64,000 nt of DNA, taken from NCBI RefSeq assembly GCF_008642355.1, contig NZ_CP029193.1, forward strand, positions 558,001 to 622,000, given 5' to 3'. This DNA is from Streptomyces venezuelae (GTDB lineage: Bacteria; Actinomycetota; Actinomycetes; Streptomycetales; Streptomycetaceae). Shown piece by piece: positions 3,389 through 63,296 of the stretch. Below the pieces are notes generated by a model. It searched no databases. It worked only from the letters and a program-made list of their open reading frames with translations, and was not told the origin of the DNA. Within the stretch, counting starts at the first letter, position 1. Each line of letters opens with the position of its first letter. Both the position numbers and the translations under genes were made by a program.

Positions 3389-6144
3389 CCCGCCGCCGCC
3401 TGCCGGTCCAGGGCCAGCCAGACTCGGTCGCGGGTCATCGGCGTCTCGGTGAAACGGATGCCGGTGGCGTCGCGCAGGGCGTTGGCGAAGGCGGGGGCCA
3501 CGGGGTTGAACGGGCTCTCGCTCATCGATTTGGCTCCGAGCGGGCCGATCGTGTCCGTCGTCCCCGCGAAGTGCACCTCGGTGCGGGGCACGTCGGCGAA
3601 GTGCGGGACGCGGTACCGGCGGAAGGCCGCCGTGGTGACCTCGCCGCGATCGTCGAGCAGTACGGCCTCGAAGAGCGTGGCGCCGAGCGCCTGGGCGACC
3701 GCGCCCTCGATCTGTCCGCGGCACTGCAGCGGGTTCAGGACCCGGCCCGCGTCCGCGGCGTGGACGCTGCGCAGGATCCGCGTCTCGCCGGTGTCCGGGT
3801 CGACGGCGATGCGGAACCACTGGGCGTTGAAGGCGACGGAACGGGGGCTGCCGTCCCAGTGCCCCTCCCCTGCCGTCTCGTGCCCCTCCCCCGTCGGCTC
3901 GTCCCGCTCGCTCTCGGCACGGGCCGCGTCGTACAACGCGCTCAGGGCGACGCGCCGGCCCGCGCAGTCCACCGCGTCCGCGGCGAGCCCGCACCGGTCA
4001 CGGGCCACGCCGGTGTGCCGTGCCGCGAAGGCCTCGATGCGCCCGGCCAGGTCCTCCGCTGCGAGCAGGACCGCCTTGCCCGCGACCACCGTGCCGGACG
4101 AACCGAAGACGCCGGTGTCGTGACGGACGATGTCGGTGTCCGACTGGCGGACTCCGATCCGGTCGACAGTCGTGCCGAGGGCCGCGGCGGCGATCTGTCC
4201 GTGGACGGTGGTGGTGCCGTTGCCGAGTTCCGTCGTGCCGACGGCCAGGTCGTACGTGCCGTCGGCGAGGAGGCGGACGCGCGCGTCGGCGTGGTGCCCG
4301 CCGGGCAGTCCGGTGGCGATCATCGAGACCGCCGCGCCCTGGCCGGTCAGCCACCCCTCCGGGACGTCGTCGGCGCTCCGGTCCTCGGCGGCGGCGCGGA
4401 CGACCGACAGGCACTCGCCGAGGCCGTAGGACCCGATGTGCAGGTCCTCGTCCTCACCGGTCGGGCAGGTCAGGCGGTCGTCGGGGCCGATGACGTTCTT
4501 CTCGCGGAAGTCGAGCGGGTCCATGCCCAGGAGACGCGCCGTCTCGTCCATGGCGGATTCGACGGCGAAGGTGACCTGCCCCAGGCCGTACCCCCTGAAG
4601 GCGCCCGAGGGAACGCTGTTGGTGTAGACGGCCCATGCGTCGACCTTCTTGTGCGGGGCCCGGTAGAGGGCGAACGGTTCCTTGACGCCGTGGAGCAGCA
4701 CCGCGGGCCCGTGGTTGCCGTACGCGCCGGTGTCGGAGACCACCCGCATCCGGAGGGCGGTCAGCGTGCCGTCGGCGCGGGCGCCCACCTTGACGCGGAC
4801 GGTGAAAGGGTGCCGGGTGGTGGCGCCGTGGAACTGCTCGGCGCGGGTGTGTTCGAGCTTGACGGGGCGGCGCAGCTTGAGCGCGGCGAGGACGACGACG
4901 TCCTCGGTCAGCATCTCCTGCTTGCCGCCGAAGCCACCGCCGACGCGTCCCGTGACGACGCGGACGCCGTCCTCGGGCAGACCGAACAGGGCGCACAGCG
5001 CGCGCCGCGTGAGGAACGGGGTCTGGGTGCTGGTCCGGACAATGAGGCGCCTGGCCCCGCCCTCCTCGAACCAGGCGACGCTGCCGTGCGTCTCCAGGCT
5101 CGCGTGCTGGACGCGCTGGGTGCGGTAGGTGCCCTCGTGGACGACGTCGGCCTCGGCGAATCCGGCGTCGACGCTGCCGGTCTCCGCGTGCACCTCCCCG
5201 GCGATGTTGTGCTCGGCGCGGGCGATCCGCGCCTCGGGCCCCTTCCCGGCGTGGAGGGCGGGTGCGCCCGGCCGCATGGCCTCCTCCGGGTCGGTGACGC
5301 AGGGCAGGTGCTCGTACGTCACGTCGACGCGCCGACAGGCTTCCTCCGCGGCCTGTTCGCTGTCGGCGACGACGGCGGCGACGCGCTGGCCGACGTACCG
5401 GACGGTGTCGTCCAGGACGCGGGTGTCGGCGGGGTCGTCGGTGGGGTCCTCGTGGCGGGCGGTGGAGTACAGCGTGGCGGGGGCGTCCTCATGGGTGAGC
5501 ACGGCGTGCACGCCGGGGACGGCGAGGGCCGCACGGGTGTCGATGGAGAGGATGCGGGCGTGCGGGTGCGGGGAGCGCAGCAGCTTCATGTGGAGCAGTC
5601 CGGGCACGTCGACGTCGAAGGTGTACCGGGCGGTGCCGGTGACGATGTCGCGGCCGACCGGGGCACCGGGGCTCGCGCCCAGCGTCTGGCCGGGGCCGGG
5701 GGTTTCGGTGTGGCGCACGCCGCGGACGGCGTCCTCGATGGCCCGGTATCCGGTGCAGCGGCAGATGTTGCCTTTGAGACGGTGCGGCAGGTCGTCCGGT
5801 TCGCCTTCGAGGGCGGCGGCGGTCATCAGGAATCCGGCGGTGCAGAACCCGCACTGGAAGCCCTGGGCGTCGAGGAACTTCCGCTGTACGGGATGGAGTC
5901 CGCCGTCGTCGGCCGCCAGGCCCTCCACCGTGGTGACCGACCGTCCCCGTGCCCGGACCGCCGGGTAGAGGCAGCTGTGGACCGGCTCGCCGTCCACATG
6001 GACGGTGCAGGCTCCGCAGTCCCCCGCGTCGCAGCCCTTCTTCACGCCGAACCAGCCGCGTTCGCGCAGGTAGGTGCGCAGACACTGGCCGGGGCGCGGC
6101 TCGGTGTCGTGGGGCCGCCCGTTGACCCGGACCGTGAACGTCAT
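3352..6144 (-). CDS. Xanthine-dehydrogenase-family oxidoreductase, fused 2Fe-2S and molybdopterin subunits
   Basis: A 930-residue protein joining two subunits that are usually separate. Residues about 1-155 form the iron-sulfur part: plant-type ferredoxin cysteines in KKGCDAGDCGACTVH, and the second cluster in QCGFCTAGF and GNICRCTGYR. Residues about 165-925 form the molybdopterin-binding part, with GRVGGGFGGKQ, VPSGAFRGYG and GPLGAKSMSESP near the active-site end. It should hydroxylate a purine or heterocyclic aldehyde; the substrate cannot be inferred. Its ATG overlaps the TGA of the upstream FAD-subunit remnant by 4 bp, so translation was coupled. Because that FAD subunit is broken, this enzyme may lack its electron acceptor. 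Confidence 0.9.
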   Translation of the reverse strand: MTFTVRVNGRPHDTEPRPGQCLRTYLRERGWFGVKKGCDAGDCGACTVHVDGEPVHSCLYPAVRARGRSVTTVEGLAADDGGLHPVQRKFLDAQGFQCGFCTAGFLMTAAALEGEPDDLPHRLKGNICRCTGYRAIEDAVRGVRHTETPGPGQTLGASPGAPVGRDIVTGTARYTFDVDVPGLLHMKLLRSPHPHARILSIDTRAALAVPGVHAVLTHEDAPATLYSTARHEDPTDDPADTRVLDDTVRYVGQRVAAVVADSEQAAEEACRRVDVTYEHLPCVTDPEEAMRPGAPALHAGKGPEARIARAEHNIAGEVHAETGSVDAGFAEADVVHEGTYRTQRVQHASLETHGSVAWFEEGGARRLIVRTSTQTPFLTRRALCALFGLPEDGVRVVTGRVGGGFGGKQEMLTEDVVVLAALKLRRPVKLEHTRAEQFHGATTRHPFTVRVKVGARADGTLTALRMRVVSDTGAYGNHGPAVLLHGVKEPFALYRAPHKKVDAWAVYTNSVPSGAFRGYGLGQVTFAVESAMDETARLLGMDPLDFREKNVIGPDDRLTCPTGEDEDLHIGSYGLGECLSVVRAAAEDRSADDVPEGWLTGQGAAVSMIATGLPGGHHADARVRLLADGTYDLAVGTTELGNGTTTVHGQIAAAALGTTVDRIGVRQSDTDIVRHDTGVFGSSGTVVAGKAVLLAAEDLAGRIEAFAARHTGVARDRCGLAADAVDCAGRRVALSALYDAARAESERDEPTGEGHETAGEGHWDGSPRSVAFNAQWFRIAVDPDTGETRILRSVHAADAGRVLNPLQCRGQIEGAVAQALGATLFEAVLLDDRGEVTTAAFRRYRVPHFADVPRTEVHFAGTTDTIGPLGAKSMSESPFNPVAPAFANALRDATGIRFTETPMTRDRVWLALDRQAAAGYAADRSEDGHT

Positions 6145-6565
6145 CGGCCGCCTTCCAGGGTGAGTTCACGGCGGATCTGCTCGGCGAGGCGGAGAGTCAT
6201 GTGCTGTCGCCACTCGGGCAGTCCGTGGATGTCGTCGAACCAGTCGGAGTCGGCGACGGCCGACGTGATCGCCGTGCGCAGCTCGGCCTCGCCCGGGGGA
6301 CGCGCGAACGACAGCCGGAAGGGACGGCGGGTCGCGGCCGTGATGGTCAGGGCCAGCGAGCCGTCCGCGGGGTCGAGCGTGCCGATGACGAGGGCACCGG
6401 AGCGTCCGAGGGCGTGCAGCGACGCTTGCCGGAACGCCGTGCGGCACCTCAGGGCGCGGCCGGGGAGTGTCACCGAACGCAGCAGCTCGCCCTCGGCGAG
6501 GTCCTTGCGGCCGTCCCCGGTGACGAAGTCCACCGTGCGCACCCGCCGCAGCGAACCGTCCTGGG
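6141..6565 (-). pseudogene. FAD-binding subunit of molybdenum dehydrogenase, N-terminal half missing
   Basis: The last roughly 140 residues of a CODH/XDH-type FAD subunit are present. They start near RTVDFVTGDG, continue through GELLRSVTLPG and ASLHALGRSGALVIG, and end RRELTLEGGR. The FAD-binding N-terminal domain (normally about 150 residues with GG-type motifs) is absent. Upstream of about 6565 the minus frame stays open but reads antisense to a plus-strand coding sequence and has no family similarity. The TGA stop overlaps the start of the fused dehydrogenase, as in an intact operon. I read this as a gene beheaded by a deletion or rearrangement; an assembly join is the other possibility. 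Confidence 0.75.
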
Positions 6566-6574
6566 CCTGACCGG

Positions 6575-7091
6575 CTTCACGACGGGCCGGGGCCACGGCG
6601 GCGGCAGTCGGCACGGCGACGGGGGTGGCGGCGGCGGTTGCAGCAACTCGAGCCAGGACCACGACAGTTCGTCGTCGAGCGGCTCGGGAGGCACGTCCGG
6701 TTCGTCGACGTCGGGTTCGGGCTACGACGACGATGACGACGTGTACGGCGGCGGCACGCACCGGCGGCTGCCGACCGACGACTCCGGCTCGTCGAGCTCT
6801 TCCGGGTCGGGCGGCAAGCGCACGGAGGACGCGACGGCGAAGCTGGTGCGCTGCGCGACGAAGGCCGCCCCGTACGCGACGGTCCAGGTCACGAACAAGA
6901 ACGACAAGGCAGGTCGCTTCTGGGTCTCGGTCACGTTCGTGGACGCCGACGGCATCACGGTCGTCGAGCAGTCCGAGAAGGTCAGGGTCCCCGGAGACGG
7001 CAAGGCGACGGCCCGGGTGGAGGTCGGCGGCGGCGGCCTCGTCGGCTCGGTGAAGCACTGCGAGGTGGACCCGCAGGCGCTGCCGGCCTGA
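6575..7091 (+). pseudogene. 3' part of a Ser/Gly/Asp-rich exported protein, N-terminus missing
   Basis: From about 6590 the plus strand encodes a low-complexity linker with GGGGGGCSNSSQ, serine runs and GYDDDDDVYGGG. A compact C-terminal domain follows (about 6835-7091), starting DATAKLVRCATKAAP and ending EVDPQALPA. This layout fits a Streptomyces cell-surface protein with a FxLYD-like C-terminal domain. No start codon, signal peptide or membrane segment precedes it: the frame runs back into the antisense of the FAD subunit. It is therefore the mirror partner of the truncated FAD gene at the same junction. Whether anything is expressed is unknown. Confidence 0.65.
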
Positions 7092-7124
7092 GCCGTCACC
7101 GCGCCGTCCTCACGTTTACGCGGA

Positions 7125-7340
7125 TCAGGCGCCGTCCAGCACGCGCTGGACCGCCTGCTGGGCCTCGTAGAAGTCCGCGTCGGAGACCTTCGGGTCGTCC
7201 TCTACGGTGTCGAGCCAGTCCGCGATCTCCTCGGGCGTCCAGAGGTCGAAACCCTTCGGAATGTCGAGCGTCGTGGTGGTGGCGCGCAGTTGCTCGGCGG
7301 CGGCTGCTTCCTTGACGCTGCGTGTACTCACTTCGATCAT
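7125..7340 (-). CDS. Small acidic hypothetical protein
   Basis: A 71-residue soluble protein of unknown function, starting MIEVSTRSVKEAAAAEQLR and containing WTPEEIADWLDTVEDDP. There is no signal peptide or membrane helix. A GGGGAGAA ribosome site sits 5-7 bases before the ATG, which supports it as a real gene. It is followed by, but converges with, the truncated secreted-protein remnant. Confidence 0.6.
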   Translation of the reverse strand: MIEVSTRSVKEAAAAEQLRATTTTLDIPKGFDLWTPEEIADWLDTVEDDPKVSDADFYEAQQAVQRVLDGA

Positions 7341-7436
7341 CGTGTTTCTCCCCTCGGGTCCGGGAACGGACGGGCGACGTTGCCAGAGGTGGGGCCGGGA
7401 TGTCCAACTGTTGCGTCTGTCGCGGCCGGGCCCGTG

Positions 7437-8336
7437 TCAGGAGGGCGGCAGGACTTGCCGCGCCACGTCCGTCAGGGCGCGGTCCAGGGGGAGGTCGACG
7501 CGGGTGGCGAGGCGGTCACCGCGGGTGGGGCCCTGGTTCACGATCAGGACCGGGGTGCCGGACTGTGCGGCCTGGCGCACGAAGCGCAGGCCCGACATGA
7601 CCGTCAGGGACGAGCCGAGGACCAGCACGGTGGTCGCTCCGTCGATGAGGCTCCGGCACACGGCCACCCGCTCGGGCGGGACGTTCTCGCCGAAGAACAC
7701 CACGTCCGGCTTGAGGACGCCCGTGCCGCAGGCCGTGCACGCCACCGTCCTGAAGCCGCTGACGGCCTCGTCGGGCAGGTCCACGTCGCCGTCCGGGTTC
7801 ACCCGCGCCGCGCGGTGCCGGGCGGCGGTCTCCTCGAAGCCGGGGTTGGCCCGGCGCAGCCGCTCGTCGAGCGTCGCGCGGTCGTACGCGGCACCGCAGT
7901 CCAGGCAGATGACGCGGCCGAGGGTGCCGTGCAGCTCCACCACGTTCGGTGCGCCGGCGGCCTGCTGCAGCCCGTCGACGTTCTGCGTGATCACCCCGGT
8001 GACGAGACCCGCCTCGGCCAGGGCCGCCACCGCGCGGTGGCCCGTGTTCGGGCGGGCCCCCGCCATGGACCGGCGGCCGAGCTGGCTGCGCGCCCAGTAC
8101 CGCCGCCGCGCGTCCTCGCTGCCGATGAACTCCTGGTACGTCATCGGCACGTGATTGCGGCGGAACGCGCCGTGCTCACCGCGGTAGTCCGGGATGCCGG
8201 ACTCCGTGGAGAGGCCCGCCCCGCTGAGCACGACGACGCCTCCCGCGCGCACCGCGGCGACGACCGCCGAGAGGTCGGTCGAGGCCGGAGGCAGGTCGCC
8301 CTGCGGCTCCCAGGTCAACGTGGGTCGCGTCCGCAT
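7437..8336 (-). CDS. Sir2-family NAD-dependent protein deacylase
   Basis: A 299-residue sirtuin. The NAD loop is GAGLSTESGIPDYRG, the NAD-binding and catalytic segment is ITQNVDGLQ, and the catalytic His is in VELHGTLG. Two zinc cysteine pairs are visible (CLDC and CTACG), and GSSLTVMSG and VNQGPTRGD complete the Rossmann part. Family role: removes acyl groups from protein lysines using NAD. The ATG at 8336 follows GAAGGA by a few bases. It lies 50 bp downstream of the FUSC gene on the same strand and may share its transcript. Confidence 0.93.
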   Translation of the reverse strand: MRTRPTLTWEPQGDLPPASTDLSAVVAAVRAGGVVVLSGAGLSTESGIPDYRGEHGAFRRNHVPMTYQEFIGSEDARRRYWARSQLGRRSMAGARPNTGHRAVAALAEAGLVTGVITQNVDGLQQAAGAPNVVELHGTLGRVICLDCGAAYDRATLDERLRRANPGFEETAARHRAARVNPDGDVDLPDEAVSGFRTVACTACGTGVLKPDVVFFGENVPPERVAVCRSLIDGATTVLVLGSSLTVMSGLRFVRQAAQSGTPVLIVNQGPTRGDRLATRVDLPLDRALTDVARQVLPPS

Positions 8337-56883: not shown

Positions 56884-57274
56884 GTTTCCCACTCCCCACG
56901 TTCACGACCTGTGCGACCGCGTCAGCCTATGCGCCGGGGGCTCAGGGTTCACCCTGTATTCGGTGCGACTGCAACGCGGCGCGAACAGAAGTACTTCACA
57001 TCGCCTCCACACTCCCCCTCTCGATCTTTACCCAACGGTTGATTGATGTACCAATTCCCAGCTCAGGGGCGGTAATTACTCATTTTTTGGCAGGATTTTG
57101 CTCTGTCATCTGTCGGTAATGCGATGGCAAAGTGTTGGTCACGACGGCCGCCCAGGCTGTTCTCAGGGCGGCTGGCGCCCACCGTCACGGCGGGCCAGTG
57201 CTGCCCCGCCGTCACCCTCGACCCGACCACACCGCGTCCCAGCCCCGCTTGAGCGACGCAGGAGGCAGGCCACC
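56884..57274. other. 391-bp divergent intergenic region, unusually AT-rich
   Basis: No gene is seen between the kinase and carbonic anhydrase starts. The middle (about 56990-57130) has far more A and T than its surroundings, with runs such as CTCATTTTTTGG and GTACCAATTCCC, as expected for promoters of two divergent transcripts. I found no convincing -35/-10 pair, riboswitch or repeat. Confidence 0.6.
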
Positions 57275-57916
57275 TTGAAGTCCCTGATCGACAACGCCCG
57301 TTCGTTCGCCGCGACGCACGTGGCGGACCCCCACAACGAAGCGGCCTTCCGTGCTCTCGAAGCCGGACAGTCACCCGAAGCCCTGTTCGTCACCTGTTCC
57401 GACTCGCGCGTCGTCCCGGCCCTGATCACCGGAGCACGACCGGGCGAGCTCTTCGAACTCCGCACGGCGGGCAACGTCGTACCGCCGTACCCCGCGGCCG
57501 GCATCGACGGCCGCGCCGATGGCCCCATGAGCGAGGCCGCCACCATCGAGTACGCGGTGTGCGTGCTCGGCGTCCGCGACATCGTCGTCTGCGGACACTC
57601 CCACTGCGGTGCCGTCGGCGCGCTGGTGCGGCGCGAGGATCTGTCGGCGGTACCGGCCGTACGTGACTGGCTGGAGCACTCCGTCGGCCCCGACGCCGCC
57701 CTTCGCTCCCTGGCCGCGACCTCGCCCGACGTGGCGGAGGCCGTCCAGACCCACGTGCTGGCGCAGGTGGAGCGGCTGCACACGTACCCCTGTGTGCGCG
57801 AGCGCGTCGCCGACAACTCCCTGACACTGCACGCCTGGTACTACGAAGTGCACACGGGCACCGTCAGCGCCCACCGGCCGTCGGACACCGGCCGGGCGTC
57901 GTTCAGTCCGCTGTGA
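57275..57916 (+). CDS. Beta-class carbonic anhydrase
   Basis: 213 residues. Zinc ligands are visible in FVTCSDSRVVP (Cys, with the Asp-Arg dyad) and CGHSHCGAVGAL (His and Cys). RPGELFELRTAGNVVPPY is the family signature. It interconverts CO2 and bicarbonate. The start is a TTG at 57275 with GGAGG 9 bases upstream; no ATG or GTG fits the family N-terminus. The SulP transporter follows 53 bp downstream, a pairing that suggests bicarbonate transport and hydration together. Confidence 0.92.
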   Translation: MKSLIDNARSFAATHVADPHNEAAFRALEAGQSPEALFVTCSDSRVVPALITGARPGELFELRTAGNVVPPYPAAGIDGRADGPMSEAATIEYAVCVLGVRDIVVCGHSHCGAVGALVRREDLSAVPAVRDWLEHSVGPDAALRSLAATSPDVAEAVQTHVLAQVERLHTYPCVRERVADNSLTLHAWYYEVHTGTVSAHRPSDTGRASFSPL

Positions 57917-57969: not shown

Positions 57970-59556
57970 ATGTCCTCCCTTTCCCCTTCTTCCTCCCCCT
58001 GGCGTTCGCCCTACCGCGCTCTGCGCGAACCGGGCGTGCTGCGACGGGACATCCTCGCCTCACTCGTCGTCTTCCTCGTCGCCCTGCCGCTGTGCGTCGG
58101 CGTGGCGGTCGCCTCCGGCGTTCCGGCCGAACTCGGTTTGGTCACCGGCATCGTCGGCGGCCTGGTCGTCGGCTGTCTGCCGGGCAGCGCACTGCAGGTG
58201 AGCGGCCCGGCCGCCGGTCTCACCGTGCTCGTCTTCGAAGCCGTGCGCGAGTTCGGACTGAGCATGCTCGGCGCGATCGTGCTGCTCACCGGCGCGCTCC
58301 AGATCGCCCTCGGCCTGCTCCGCTGTGGCCGGTGGTTCCGCGCGATATCGGTCTCCGTCGTCCAGGGCATGCTGGCCGGCATCGGCCTCGTACTGATCTT
58401 CGGCCAGCTCTACACCATGGCCGGGGCGAAGCAGCCGCTGTCCGGCATGGACAAGATCACCGGCGTGCCGGGGCTCCTCGCCGACACGGTCGGGGACACC
58501 ACGGCGCTGACCGCGGCGGCCGTCGGACTCGGCACGATCGCCGTCCTCGTGCTGTGGCCGAAGCTGCCCTCCGCGGCGCGTGTGGTGCCCGCCCCGCTGG
58601 CCGCCGTGGCCCTCGCCACGGCCGTGACCGCCGGGTTCGGCCTCGACGTGGCGAACGTGTCGGTGCGCGGCATGGTCGACGCCATCCAGCCGCCCGGCTT
58701 CGGCGACCTCGCGGACCTGGGCAGCGTCGCGGTGCTCGGCACCGTCCTCGCGTTCACCCTGATCGCCTCGGCGGAGTCGCTGTTCAGCGCGGCAGCGGTG
58801 GACCGCATGCACGACGGTCCCCGCACGCACTACGACAAGGAGCTCGTCGCCCAGGGTGTCGGCAACACGGTGTGCGGTGTGCTCGGCGCCCTGCCGATGA
58901 CCGCGGTGATCGTGCGCAGCTCCGCCAATGTCAACGCCGGGGCCCGCACACCGCTCTCCCGGATCCTGCACGGCGCGTGGCTGCTGCTGTTCGCGGTGCT
59001 CCTGCCGGCCGCGCTCGGCATCATCCCTCTCGCCGCGCTCGCCGGCGTCCTGGTGCACGCGGGCTGCAAGCTGATCCCCGTCAAGGAGATCGTCCCGCTC
59101 GCCCGCACCCACCGCGGCGAGGCCGTCGTCCTCGCCGTCACGGCGATCGCCATCGTGGTGACCAACATGTTCGAGGGCGTCATCCTCGGCCTGGTCCTCG
59201 CGGTGGCCAAGTCCGCCTGGGACACCTCCCATGTCCACGTCGACGTACGGGAGTTGACCGACGGGCGCATGGTGGTGACCCTCACCGGCAACGCCACGTT
59301 CCTGCGGCTCCCGCGCATCCTGGAGACCCTGGAGGCCATGCCGCAGGACCGCCCCATCGAGCTGGACCTGACGGCCGTGCGCCATCTGGACCACGCCTGC
59401 CGCACGACACTGGAGAACTGGGCGCTGCGGCACAACGACAGCGGCACGGAAGCCGTACGGATGAAGATGCTTCCGACTGTCGAGGTCAAGAGCAAGAGCG
59501 AGACCGGGGACGACGCCAGGAGCGAGACCAGGGCCACGGCCAAGGCCGAGGCCTGA
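57970..59556 (+). CDS. SulP-family anion (probable bicarbonate) transporter
   Basis: 528 residues. About 10-12 membrane helices are visible, including the SulP signature region GLVTGIVGGLVVGCLPGSAL and QVSGPAAGLTVLVFEAV. A conserved SANVNAGARTPLSRILHGAW segment follows. The C-terminal cytoplasmic part (about 430-510) is a STAS domain (RPIELDLTAVRHLDHACRTT). Because the partner is a carbonic anhydrase, bicarbonate rather than sulfate is the likely substrate, as in BicA-type systems. A hairpin terminator follows. Confidence 0.9.
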   Translation: MSSLSPSSSPWRSPYRALREPGVLRRDILASLVVFLVALPLCVGVAVASGVPAELGLVTGIVGGLVVGCLPGSALQVSGPAAGLTVLVFEAVREFGLSMLGAIVLLTGALQIALGLLRCGRWFRAISVSVVQGMLAGIGLVLIFGQLYTMAGAKQPLSGMDKITGVPGLLADTVGDTTALTAAAVGLGTIAVLVLWPKLPSAARVVPAPLAAVALATAVTAGFGLDVANVSVRGMVDAIQPPGFGDLADLGSVAVLGTVLAFTLIASAESLFSAAAVDRMHDGPRTHYDKELVAQGVGNTVCGVLGALPMTAVIVRSSANVNAGARTPLSRILHGAWLLLFAVLLPAALGIIPLAALAGVLVHAGCKLIPVKEIVPLARTHRGEAVVLAVTAIAIVVTNMFEGVILGLVLAVAKSAWDTSHVHVDVRELTDGRMVVTLTGNATFLRLPRILETLEAMPQDRPIELDLTAVRHLDHACRTTLENWALRHNDSGTEAVRMKMLPTVEVKSKSETGDDARSETRATAKAEA

Positions 59557-59692: not shown

Positions 59693-59851
59693 GTGCAACA
59701 ACTCATCAAGCGCATGACGCAGGAGTCCGTCTGGCAGAAGTGGGTCGCGGTCAACTCGGCCCAGGGCACGGGCTCCAAGGAGGGCTGCATCAGCGCGACG
59801 CCGAAGAGCGGCTGCATCAGCGCCACCGGCAAGACCGGCTGCATCTCCTAG
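59693..59851 (+). CDS. Putative RiPP precursor peptide with three xKxGCISAT repeats
   Basis: 52 residues. The N-terminal part (1-27) starts MQQLIKRMTQESVWQKWVAV and looks like a leader. The C-terminal 25 residues are three tandem 9-residue units: SKEGCISAT (28-36), PKSGCISAT (37-45) and GKTGCIS (46-52). Cysteines are at 32, 41 and 50, exactly 9 apart, and the peptide ends CIS. No signal peptide or membrane helix is present. GGAGG lies 8 bases before the GTG at 59693; an in-frame ATG at 59678 is the alternative. Downstream genes encode an adenylate-forming enzyme, a DEIWH-motif protein and aminopeptidase P. A modified, multi-core peptide is inferred; a cysteine-based metal-binding peptide is possible. 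Confidence 0.75.
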   Translation: MQQLIKRMTQESVWQKWVAVNSAQGTGSKEGCISATPKSGCISATGKTGCIS

Positions 59852-59876
59852 CAGCGCCGCCGACGCGGCGGGCGGT

Positions 59877-59913
59877 GGCGGTGACGGCGGCGACACGAGC
59901 CGCGGTCACCGCC
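59877..59913 (+). terminator. Hairpin between precursor peptide and first biosynthetic gene
   Basis: The arms GGCGGTGAC (59877-59885) and GTCACCGCC (59905-59913) form a perfect 9-bp stem within a C/G-rich context. Its position, 26 bp after the precursor stop, suits a partial terminator that would give more peptide mRNA than enzyme mRNA. Confidence 0.45.
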
Positions 59914-59995
59914 CCGCCCCGCCCCGCCATCCACCCGTACGCCCCGCCCGCACGCCCCCGTGCCCACTTCCACCCCGCCCAGCACCGGAGCCCCT

Positions 59996-61216
59996 TTGAA
60001 CCGCCTGCCGAGCGCCGACGTCCTGGACAAGGTCCGGGACATCCCCCTGTACCGCGCGTCCGTCGAGCGCGGCGACTTCCCCGTCCTGGAGAAGCCGGAG
60101 ATCGCCCGGGACTTCCCCGCCAACTGGATGACCCCCGAACTGGAACGGGCGCTGGAGACGGGCGACGCCGAGTTCGTGCTGTCCACCGGGACCAATCACG
60201 CCCGCATGCAGCTCATCCGGCCGCCCTACTTCCTGCTCCGCTCCTACTACCGCCTGTGGAGCGAGCACCCCGAACTCGGCCCCCTCTGGCACGGAGGGGC
60301 CCGGCGCGTCTCGCTGACCACCGTCCTCGCCACCGAGCACGTCGCCCGTGTCAACGCCCGCAAACCCGGCGCGACGCCCGGTGAACGCTGGCTGGACGAC
60401 CGGACGCTGTACCTCAACCGGGAACTGGATCCGAGCGGTTGGGGCCGCGCCGAGGTGGAGCGGATGCTCTCCGAGATCCGCGAGGTGAGCGCCGCGCATC
60501 CCACGGGCGCGTACCTCCTCGACTGCTCGAGCTACCATCTCGCGCACCTGGCCGGGAAGGTCACCGAGTGGGACCTGTGGGACCGCTTCCCGCGGCCCGC
60601 CGGGATCATCCACGCCTACGAGTACACGCCGCTGAACGTACGCGCGTACCTGCGCACCCACTTCGACTGCCCCATCGTCGACCTCTTCGGCAGCACGGAA
60701 CTGGGCTACCTCTTCTACAGCGAGGGCGAAGGGCGCTACCGCCCCTACCTCCACGACATGAGCGTGGAACTGATCCCGGTCGAGCCGGGCAGCGGCATCC
60801 ACAGCCTCATCGTCACCAGCGTCCGCAACCCGTACATGCCGCTGGTCCGCTACCGCTCCGGCGACTGCGTCCGCACCTCCGACGGCAGCACCGACCCGGA
60901 GCGGATCGTCTCCTTCTGCGGCCGTGAGAAGGAACTGCTCGCCACGCCCGAAGGTCCGGTCGCCCAGGCCGACCTCGACGCCCGGGTCTCCGCGGGCTCG
61001 CCCCGCGTCTTCCTGCACCAGTTGCACCTCGACGGCGAGGACCGATGCGCCCTGTGGTGCACGACGTTCGACGGGCAACCGCTCGAAGCCGGGGAGGCCG
61101 CCGAACTCGCGGCGGCTGTAGGGGCTTTGACCGGACGCGCCTGTCACGTGGAGCACCGCGCCCACGTGCCGATCGGGCGCTCCGGCAAGTACGCCTGGCT
61201 TGCCGCGCCCCAGTGA
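59996..61216 (+). CDS. PaaK/LuxE-like adenylate-forming enzyme
   Basis: About 406 residues, shorter than most ANL enzymes and in the size range of PaaK-type ligases. The ATP-binding segment is EFVLSTGTNHARMQLIRPP, a variant of the usual TSGTTG loop. DLFGSTELGYLFYSEGEG is the A5-like motif and PLVRYRSGDCVRT the A7-like motif. It should adenylate a carboxylate; in this context the substrate could be a small acid added to the peptide or the peptide C-terminus. The start chosen is TTG at 59996 with GGAG 5 bases upstream; GTG at 59960 lacks a ribosome site. The next gene begins 32 bp after its stop with a near-identical CCGGAGCCC leader. Confidence 0.78.
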   Translation: MNRLPSADVLDKVRDIPLYRASVERGDFPVLEKPEIARDFPANWMTPELERALETGDAEFVLSTGTNHARMQLIRPPYFLLRSYYRLWSEHPELGPLWHGGARRVSLTTVLATEHVARVNARKPGATPGERWLDDRTLYLNRELDPSGWGRAEVERMLSEIREVSAAHPTGAYLLDCSSYHLAHLAGKVTEWDLWDRFPRPAGIIHAYEYTPLNVRAYLRTHFDCPIVDLFGSTELGYLFYSEGEGRYRPYLHDMSVELIPVEPGSGIHSLIVTSVRNPYMPLVRYRSGDCVRTSDGSTDPERIVSFCGREKELLATPEGPVAQADLDARVSAGSPRVFLHQLHLDGEDRCALWCTTFDGQPLEAGEAAELAAAVGALTGRACHVEHRAHVPIGRSGKYAWLAAPQ

Positions 61217-61248
61217 CCGCCGCCTCGACCCACCGGACCGGAGCCCTC

Positions 61249-61761
61249 ATGCACACTTCTGTCTCGCATGCCCCCACCGCCGAGGAACTGCTCGGCGCCG
61301 ACCTGCACGGCGAGGTCGTACGGCACTTCGCGGCGAAGCCCGACGCCCCGGACCTCGCGTACATCACCCACCAGGTCCGCGAGTGCCTCCGCTACCTCTA
61401 CCTGGTCTCCCGCCACCCCGACCGCCTCGCCGGCCTCTTCCTCCCCGTCGAGCAGGACATCGACGAGATCTGGCACTACCTGATCCTGCAGACGCGGGAG
61501 TACCGGGAACTGTGCGAACAGCGGCTTCCCGGCGGCCACTTCATCCACCACCGGAGCGTGTCGTACGACACCTACCAGCAGGAGCCGGGGCGCGAGACGG
61601 CGGCGGAGGAGGCGCTGCGCTGGATCCCCCTCTACACGGCGGCGTTCGGCCCGTACGACGAGGACGCACTGCCGCACTGGACGGTCGTGCGGTTCCTGCA
61701 CGAGGTGCTCGAGCTGTCCCTGACGGAGATCGCGGCGCTGGCGGACGGCTCTGAGGGCTGA
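61249..61761 (+). CDS. DEIWH-motif protein (glycine-rich-domain-protein-like family)
   Basis: 170 residues, soluble and acidic. The central segment LPVEQDIDEIWHYLILQTRE is followed by YRELCEQRLPGGHFIHHRSV. The D-x-x-W-H pattern with later His residues resembles the catalytically uncharacterised part of glycine-rich domain proteins (DxxWHTH-type), as I recall them. The conserved His could bind a metal, which is inference. The ATG at 61249 follows GGAG by 5 bases. It lies 32 bp behind the adenylate-forming gene and is probably co-transcribed. Confidence 0.6.
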   Translation: MHTSVSHAPTAEELLGADLHGEVVRHFAAKPDAPDLAYITHQVRECLRYLYLVSRHPDRLAGLFLPVEQDIDEIWHYLILQTREYRELCEQRLPGGHFIHHRSVSYDTYQQEPGRETAAEEALRWIPLYTAAFGPYDEDALPHWTVVRFLHEVLELSLTEIAALADGSEG

Positions 61762-61814
61762 GCCGCGGCCACCAACTTGGCCGCACCGCAACGGATTTGA
61801 CGACGCACGACGGA

Positions 61815-61848
61815 TTGCCCATGGACCGCGCCATAGTAATGTGACATT
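61815..61848 (+). promoter_or_regulatory. Promoter with overlapping palindrome upstream of pepP
   Basis: TTGCCC (61815-61820) and TAATGT (61837-61842) are 16 bp apart. Overlapping the -10, AATGTGACATT (61838-61848) is a perfect 11-bp palindrome flanked by GT and TTTACT, in an AT-rich patch. This fits a regulated promoter for the peptidase gene 57 bp downstream. Confidence 0.5.
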
Positions 61849-61904
61849 TTACTGACCGGCTTCCGCACCCCCGTCCGTCCGTGCGTCGTCCTCAGGGAGT
61901 CCTC

Positions 61905-63296
61905 GTGACCGCATCCGGCATGCCGCAAACCGTCTCCCCGCTCCACACCGGCAGCCACGACCTGCCCGCCTCCGCCGAGCTCTCCCGCTTCATGACGGAG
62001 TCCTGGGCACCGTCCGCCCCGCCCGAGTCCGCACGGGTCCCCGCGCACGCCGTCACCCCGGCCCGTCGGGCGCGGCTCTCGGACCGCTTCCCCGGCGAGC
62101 GGCTCCTCGTGCCCGCGGGCGAGCTCACCGTCCGGTCGAACGACTGCGACCACCGCTTCCGGCCGCACAGCGCGTACGCCTGGCTGACCGGGCTCACCGG
62201 TGAGGACCAGGCCGGCGCCGTACTGGTCATGGAACCCTCGGGACCGCACGCGCACGAAGCGGTGCTGTATCTGCGGCCGCGCTCCCCGCGCGTCGACGGC
62301 GACGAGGAGTTCTACCGGGACCGGCGCCACGGCGAGTTCTGGGTGGGCCGCCGCCCCGACCTCGCCGAGGCGGAACGGCTCACCGGCATCCGCTGCGCCC
62401 ACCTGGACGCGCTGGGGACACCGACAGGCCGCAACGCCGCCACCGACCCCGAACTGGCTTCCGCCCTCTCCGAGTTGCGGCTCGTCAAGGACGCCTGGGA
62501 GATCGAGCAGCTGCAGCTGGCCGTCGACCACACCACCGCGGGGTTCGAGGACGTGGTCCGAGCGCTGCCGCGCGCGCTCGCGCATCCGCGCGGGGAACGG
62601 TGGATCGAGGGGGTCTTCGGCCTGCGTGCCCGCGCCGAGGGCAACGGCACCGGCTACGAGACCATCGCGGCCTCCGGAGCCCACGCCTGCGTGCTCCACT
62701 GGATCCGCAACGACGGGCGTCTGCACCGCGACGACCTCCTGCTCCTGGACGCGGGCGTGGAGACCGACAGCCTCTACACCGCGGACATCACCCGCACCCT
62801 GCCGCTCTCCGGCCGCTTCTCCCCCGTCCAGCGCCAGGTGTACGAGCTGGTGCTCGCCGCCCAGGAAGCGGGCATCGCGGCGCTGCGTCCCGGTGCGCGC
62901 TTCCGTGACTTCCACCGCGCGGCGATGGGGGTCATCTCGGAGGGGCTCGTCGAGTGGGGTGTGCTGAAGGGCGCGCGGGGCGACCTGCACCGCCGCTACA
63001 CCCTGTGCGGCAGCGGCCACATGCTCGGGCTCGACGTGCACGACTGCGCCACGGCGCGCGCCGAGACCTACCTGGACGGCGTCCTGGAGGAAGGCCAGGT
63101 CCTCACCGTGGAGCCGGGCCTCTACCTCCAGCCCGACGACAAGACGCTCCCCGCCGAGCTGCGCGGCATCGGCGTCCGGATCGAGGACGACCTGGTCGTC
63201 ACGGCGGAAGGTGCGCGCCTGATGTCGGGAGCGCTGCCGCGCACGGTCGCGGGCATCGAGGAGTGGATGGGCGCGCTGCTCGACACCCGCTCCTGA
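61905..63296 (+). CDS. pepP: Xaa-Pro aminopeptidase (aminopeptidase P, M24B)
   Basis: 463 residues. The N-terminal domain (about 50-180) has HSAYAWLTGLTGEDQAGAV. The pita-bread metal site is present: Asp in LLLLDAGVETDS and YTADITRTLPLSG, His in CGSGHMLGLDVHD, Glu in LTVEPGLYLQP and in GVRIEDDLVV. It removes N-terminal residues that precede proline using Mn. The GTG at 61905 follows AGGGAG. It lies next to the repeat peptide locus but has its own promoter. Homologues mature some RiPP leaders, and the peptide contains one Xaa-Pro bond (Thr36-Pro37); the link is inference. Confidence 0.93.
   Translation: MTASGMPQTVSPLHTGSHDLPASAELSRFMTESWAPSAPPESARVPAHAVTPARRARLSDRFPGERLLVPAGELTVRSNDCDHRFRPHSAYAWLTGLTGEDQAGAVLVMEPSGPHAHEAVLYLRPRSPRVDGDEEFYRDRRHGEFWVGRRPDLAEAERLTGIRCAHLDALGTPTGRNAATDPELASALSELRLVKDAWEIEQLQLAVDHTTAGFEDVVRALPRALAHPRGERWIEGVFGLRARAEGNGTGYETIAASGAHACVLHWIRNDGRLHRDDLLLLDAGVETDSLYTADITRTLPLSGRFSPVQRQVYELVLAAQEAGIAALRPGARFRDFHRAAMGVISEGLVEWGVLKGARGDLHRRYTLCGSGHMLGLDVHDCATARAETYLDGVLEEGQVLTVEPGLYLQPDDKTLPAELRGIGVRIEDDLVVTAEGARLMSGALPRTVAGIEEWMGALLDTRS

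Follow-up and report, generated by a model that had tools for sequence, protein, structure and literature searches.

A repeated cysteine peptide travels with a PaaK-type ligase: apparently a conserved ribosomal-peptide locus outside the described classes

What does a short, repetitive cysteine peptide do next to an adenylating ligase in a Streptomyces genome? The question is raised by a locus in the stretch of Streptomyces venezuelae DNA analyzed here, a window of 64,000 nucleotides (positions 558001–622000 of contig NZ_CP029193.1, the single contig of an 8.0 Mb genome). Its core consists of three genes on the forward strand: a 52-residue precursor-like peptide (59693–59851), a PaaK-type ligase (59996–61216) and the 170-residue DEIWH protein (61249–61761). 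The original prediction had taken these, together with a gene for aminopeptidase P, for a candidate locus of a ribosomally synthesized and post-translationally modified peptide (RiPP). Comparison with relatives reveals a well-conserved ribosomal-peptide locus, apparently of a type not described before and unmatched to any known class. The leader-and-repeat peptide with its linked enzymes stood up to this comparison and the aminopeptidase P did not, while a modified product is something we infer.

The peptide begins at a GTG (59693) with the sequence GGAGG immediately upstream and ends at a TAG (59849–59851). It reads (V/M)QQLIKRMTQESVWQKWVAVNSAQGTGSKEGCISATPKSGCISATGKTGCIS and can be divided into a 22-residue leader (up to ...VAVNS), a linker, and three K-x-G-C-I-S units whose cysteines are spaced by exactly nine residues; frame, ribosome site and spacing are thus as first described. 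Could such a pattern arise by chance? Among the open stretches in all six frames of the window this peptide is the sole one with at least two KxGC[IV]S matches. Two hundred triplet shuffles of the window gave no frame of this kind (single matches occurred at 0.025 per shuffle), and in 1.03 Mb from 80 relatives no frame besides the precursor carries two matches. The genome itself holds one true copy, the nine further matches at E up to 10 all having E 0.087 or worse.

The relatives come from a scan of genome contigs with the ligase as query, from which the best 80 of 93 were kept as loci. They are mostly from Streptomyces, but also from Kitasatospora, Kutzneria, Sciscionella, Amycolatopsis, Saccharopolyspora, Actinokineospora and Sorangium (two loci). 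In 80/80 loci, across two phyla, the ligase gene is directly preceded on its own strand by a gene for a peptide of like design; ligase homologues lacking the peptide, which would have spoken against the locus, are not among them. The following counts refer to 81 peptides, one of which (L048) escaped the leader regular expression and was taken by hand. Leader positions L4, W14, W17, N21 and S22 are invariant in all 81, while the number of units varies from two to six: three in 64 peptides, two in 11, four in four, and five and six in one each. A variable repeat number under a conserved leader is what the original prediction had proposed to look for. Within the 241 units the core is GCIS in 227, GCVS in 11 and degenerate in three, and a lysine stands two positions before the glycine in 238 (the exceptions are two arginines and one aspartate). 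The 160 steps between units measure nine residues in 113 cases, eight in 27 and seven in 15. Single units have degenerated to GYIS in L055 and GRAS in L070, losses that fit independently acting units. The two Sorangium peptides (L073:5680 and L077:5634 onward) contain five or six KKAGCIS-like units; in L077 the first of them looks degenerate (AGGVAR).

Selection on the peptide was assessed by the ratio of nonsynonymous to synonymous substitution rates (dN/dS). It ranges from 0 to 0.69 in 19 of 21 hand-picked pairs, the other two having no synonymous difference, and from 0.10 to 0.49 in the four pairs that include the window peptide. Reading frame, leader and units are conserved and dN/dS is low, from which we conclude that the peptide is translated and under purifying selection, with K-x-G-C-[IV]-S as the part that selection holds. 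An unconserved frame, the second finding that could have overturned the prediction, is therefore not what the relatives display.

The constant neighbor of the peptide is the ligase, present as a single copy in its genome. Its likelier start is an in-frame TTG at 59996, behind CCGGAGCCC, giving 406 residues; a GTG at 59960 would give 418, and this numbering is used below. Pfam returned no match, and the match to the NCBIfam family of AMP-dependent CoA ligases, NF045666, remained below its cut-off (E 1.9e-7). A profile of 48 sequences (alignment A1: the window and 47 of the 80 loci) finds PaaK-type ligases as its best structure matches, all weak, the best with E 5.9e-8. The motifs are more telling: STGTNHARM (75–83), FGSTELGY (243–250), YRSGD (298–302), GRE (in the region 321–325) and a C-terminal Lys410 in GKYAW, of which STGT, FGSTELG, YRSGD, GRE and K410 are invariant in all 48 sequences. 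We take these to be the motifs of adenylate-forming (ANL) enzymes and their catalytic C-terminal lysine. Judged by its sequence, this protein belongs to the PaaK-type adenylating enzymes as a divergent member whose motifs are intact.

The DEIWH protein follows the ligase in 79/80 loci; in the remaining one, L005, the contig breaks off after 27 further bases. In L001 (Streptomyces sp. WAC 01529; 6001–7719) both proteins form one open frame with no stop between them, which argues that they work together; a 601-residue ligase frame from the genome search (G093, 87% identical) can be compared with this fusion. Its family is less readily named. The DEIWH protein (alignment A2: the window and 48 loci) matched nothing in NCBIfam, in PDB sequences or in the Pfam library used, which lacks PF27765, the accession that its relatives bear as a precomputed annotation; it thus has no assigned family in these libraries. 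The AlphaFold model is all-helical (mean pLDDT 85.2, pTM 0.83), and structure comparison with this model turned up no clear neighbor. Some relatives carry the NCBI label 'glycine-rich domain-containing protein'. Three of 49 family members touch the GRDP-like model PF07173 (best E 0.12), and a genome search with it matched nothing, controls included. Neither the ligase nor the DEIWH protein has a Pfam or NCBIfam match to a RiPP recognition element, an element that is often missed by sequence. Stops lie inside the ligase match of L019 (6001–7263) and the DEIWH match of L013 (7340–7831), reflecting decay or sequencing error, and both were excluded from the clean references.

Further genes recur around this core. 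When accessory genes were sought by tblastn in the fetched flanks of about 6 kb, a transporter of the major facilitator superfamily (MFS) was found at 61/80 loci: 53 of a main type and nine of a second type, with both in L037. The second-type copy of L010 is 38% identical and about 4 kb away. The 19 loci with no MFS gene include L001–L003, the closest kin of the window, as well as L005 and L008, which are cut by contig ends. A flavin monooxygenase with the look of an FMO/Baeyer-Villiger enzyme accompanies 11/80 loci, from Streptomyces, Amycolatopsis, Saccharopolyspora, Actinokineospora and both Sorangium strains.

A promoter-like site of the form CATTGACA-N4-CTTGGC-N4-CTTTTACCTTCGG, scored as present with at least 17 of its 27 fixed letters, stands upstream of the peptide in 68/81 loci. 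It is composed of two TTG-type repeats 11 bases apart and a following −10-like element, and lies about 90–110 bases from the peptide in most relatives, for example at 5573–5607 in L049. In the window and L001–L003 a gene for a SulP transporter lies directly upstream of the peptide in its place. Searching seven genomes with the core pattern gave one exact match, at this locus, in four and zero in two; in the L001 genome the lone match, with a single mismatch, is elsewhere. The reversed pattern had no match in the seven. The spacing resembles that of direct repeats read by regulators of the SARP type, which are candidates here. The original prediction named the core genes correctly and overlooked the exporter, the monooxygenase, the promoter motif of the relatives and a linkage to carbonic anhydrase and SulP genes that is taken up below.

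What, then, is the locus for? What marks a RiPP locus at the level of genes is present: ribosomal precursors with a conserved leader and a separable core (81 peptides), and enzyme genes beside them (ligase in 80/80, DEIWH protein in 79/80). We give about an even chance to a RiPP-type pathway, read from sequence, in which every unit would receive an activated acid through the ligase and the DEIWH protein. The helical-looking leader would serve as a recognition handle and the two to six near-identical units as several cores. Ligase and DEIWH protein would work as one enzyme: the ligase would activate a carboxylic acid as its acyl-AMP, and both proteins together would move the acyl group onto each unit, to the lysine amine or the cysteine thiol. 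Cleavage at the units may be left to ordinary cell proteases and export of the small products to the MFS pump, and in some strains the flavin monooxygenase may tailor these products further. This reading is favored because the peptide is found at every locus, the leader is fixed while the unit number varies, the ANL motifs are intact, the DEIWH protein is linked, and exporter and monooxygenase recur; low dN/dS, the promoter match specific to the locus in four of seven genomes and PaaK relatives that use acceptors other than CoA add to this. The conserved gene set suggests a route to peptide-derived compounds that has not been described.

Several points weigh against it. Both the reaction and the residue that it would target are inferred, as are acid, cleavage and product; the acid is not readable from the ligase sequence. 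The conserved set contains no protease. The lysine is replaced in three of 241 units, so that another residue could be the acceptor. Pfam and NCBIfam searches with the four window proteins matched no enzyme that defines a described RiPP class (lanthipeptide, YcaO, radical SAM, graspetide, lasso); neighbors further out were clustered by BLAST, ten representatives being run against Pfam. The same lack is also what makes the locus new. Finally, the window and L001–L003 have neither the MFS gene nor the promoter motif, and the best MFS relative in the window's own genome lies elsewhere, is 43% identical and has a stop in the matched stretch. For these reasons the pathway may be altered or degraded in this strain.

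Could the peptide be a tool instead of the product? The boldest alternative, possible though unlikely, is that the ligase loads the acid onto the cysteines as thioesters and that the monooxygenase or other enzymes act on the tethered group. The completed small molecule would then leave the peptide and be exported, and the peptide would be reused, like a small ribosomal acyl carrier protein. Such a role would suit a unit motif that is almost invariant over two phyla, whereas natural-product cores usually diversify. The unit number would be free to vary, the one constant enzyme is an adenylating one, and the exporter is of a small-molecule MFS type. A regenerated ribosomal peptide scaffold is known in pearlins (PMC9016710). 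The conserved set, however, includes no thioesterase or condensing enzyme, judged from neighbor clusters built with a crude gene caller, of which ten representatives were run against Pfam. The near-invariant lysine and serine would be left unexplained, and the cysteine was lost from single units in L055 and L070. Decidedly unlikely, too, is a multi-arm form of this carrier, with the units as swinging-thiol sites, ligase and DEIWH protein loading the thioesters, small molecules being assembled on the peptide and exported, and the peptide recycled. If true, it would be a phosphopantetheine-free thioester carrier encoded in fewer than 200 bases.

A third proposal, which we consider improbable, is that the ligase activates the carboxylate of the peptide itself, at an end exposed by cleavage, so that a cysteine or lysine can form a small thiolactone or isopeptide ring with it. 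ANL chemistry could in principle close such a ring, and in 72 of the 81 precursors nothing follows the final ...GC[IV]S or its degenerate form. The remaining nine run on for one to seven residues past the last unit, which makes ring closure less likely, and internal units would need prior cutting in a set devoid of proteases.

The genes upstream raise a different possibility. A β-carbonic anhydrase (57230–57916, forward strand, in an open reading frame of 57098–57916 whose true start is uncertain; Pfam Pro_CA, E 1.3e-42) and a SulP-family anion transporter (57970–59556, forward strand; Pfam Sulfate_transp, E 2.4e-60) precede the peptide, the latter by 137 bp. One or both occur in the flanks of 46/81 loci: upstream on the same strand in 12, downstream on the same strand in 23, upstream on the opposite strand in nine and downstream on the opposite strand in two. 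This count leaves out a match to carbonic anhydrase in L073 that is 32% identical. The other 35 loci have neither, among them all 11 from outside Streptomyces (Kitasatospora L019 included), and these five states require at least 18 changes on the ligase tree. Of the 21 ligase-bearing Streptomyces genomes, 13 have SulP no more than 6 kb from the ligase. For carbonic anhydrase, 14 have it within 5 kb, where copy number alone would lead one to expect about 0.1, a contrast that is not a probability because the genomes are related. Ten ligase-free genomes hold SulP relatives, and many Streptomyces have the pair but no ligase. From these counts the linkage is real, neither universal nor exclusive. 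That the peptide merely buffers metals or thiols for carbonic anhydrase and bicarbonate or anion uptake, outside any natural-product pathway, would account for this proximity in Streptomyces, yet is highly improbable given the loci and genomes in which pair and ligase occur apart, and it leaves the adenylating ligase and the exporter unexplained. The linkage suggests a bicarbonate link or a self-protection gene: its basis may be protection against a product that hits carbonic anhydrase, bicarbonate supply, or shared regulation.

Downstream, aminopeptidase P (61905–63296, forward strand) is a neighbor outside the conserved set. As a member of the locus it was rejected: it is in the fetched flanks of 0/80 relatives, and the other genomes tested have its nearest relative at least 17 kb from the ligase or on another contig.

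How widespread is the system? The ligase occurs in 21/150 sampled genomes of the genus, and in a phylum-wide sample in its own genome only (1/396). A protein search with the Sorangium ligase, among the best 120 of 315 listed matches, adds Melittangium and Cystobacter at the level of the ligase. With 21 genomes and a reach to Sorangium, many culturable strains are available for testing the proposals. Should the ligase modify the peptide, a ribosomal peptide pathway would be defined by an ANL enzyme, together with a partner of unassigned fold family, and the unit repeats would be an attractive peptide-tagging system.

In the open-access literature we found no paper pairing a PaaK-type ligase with a RiPP precursor and no description of the locus, so that comparison has to proceed by parts. 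The general class of RiPPs with repeated cores likewise has a leader followed by repeated short units, with tailoring enzymes and an exporter encoded alongside; what is constant here is a PaaK-type adenylating ligase and its partner of unassigned family. Selidamides and other acylated RiPPs bear acyl groups on side-chain amines, made by GNAT-type acyltransferases as opposed to the adenylating ligase of our locus. For the ligase itself, the profile reaches PDB chains 6siw_A/B at a distance (E 1.7e-4), which we take to be NatL2. NatL2 is reported to be a PaaK-family enzyme that forms an ester through an adenylate with a non-CoA acceptor (PMC7204872). The benzoxazole enzymes NatL2 and BomJ thus resemble the proposed reaction in joining an acyl-AMP to an acceptor other than CoA, and differ in their small aromatic substrates and, as described there, in having no peptide gene. 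Pearlins are a known case of a peptide as support. A LanB-related aminoacyl-tRNA ligase domain was absent from the four window proteins in Pfam and NCBIfam, the wider neighborhood not having been scanned for one. In pearlins a TglA-type reusable ribosomal scaffold is paired with a peptide aminoacyl-tRNA ligase, which is LanB-related and acts at the chain end (PMC9016710). What the two systems share is a small ribosomal peptide of about 50 residues that could support ATP-driven attachment; here, though, a PaaK-type ligase would act on internal repeats as putative sites.

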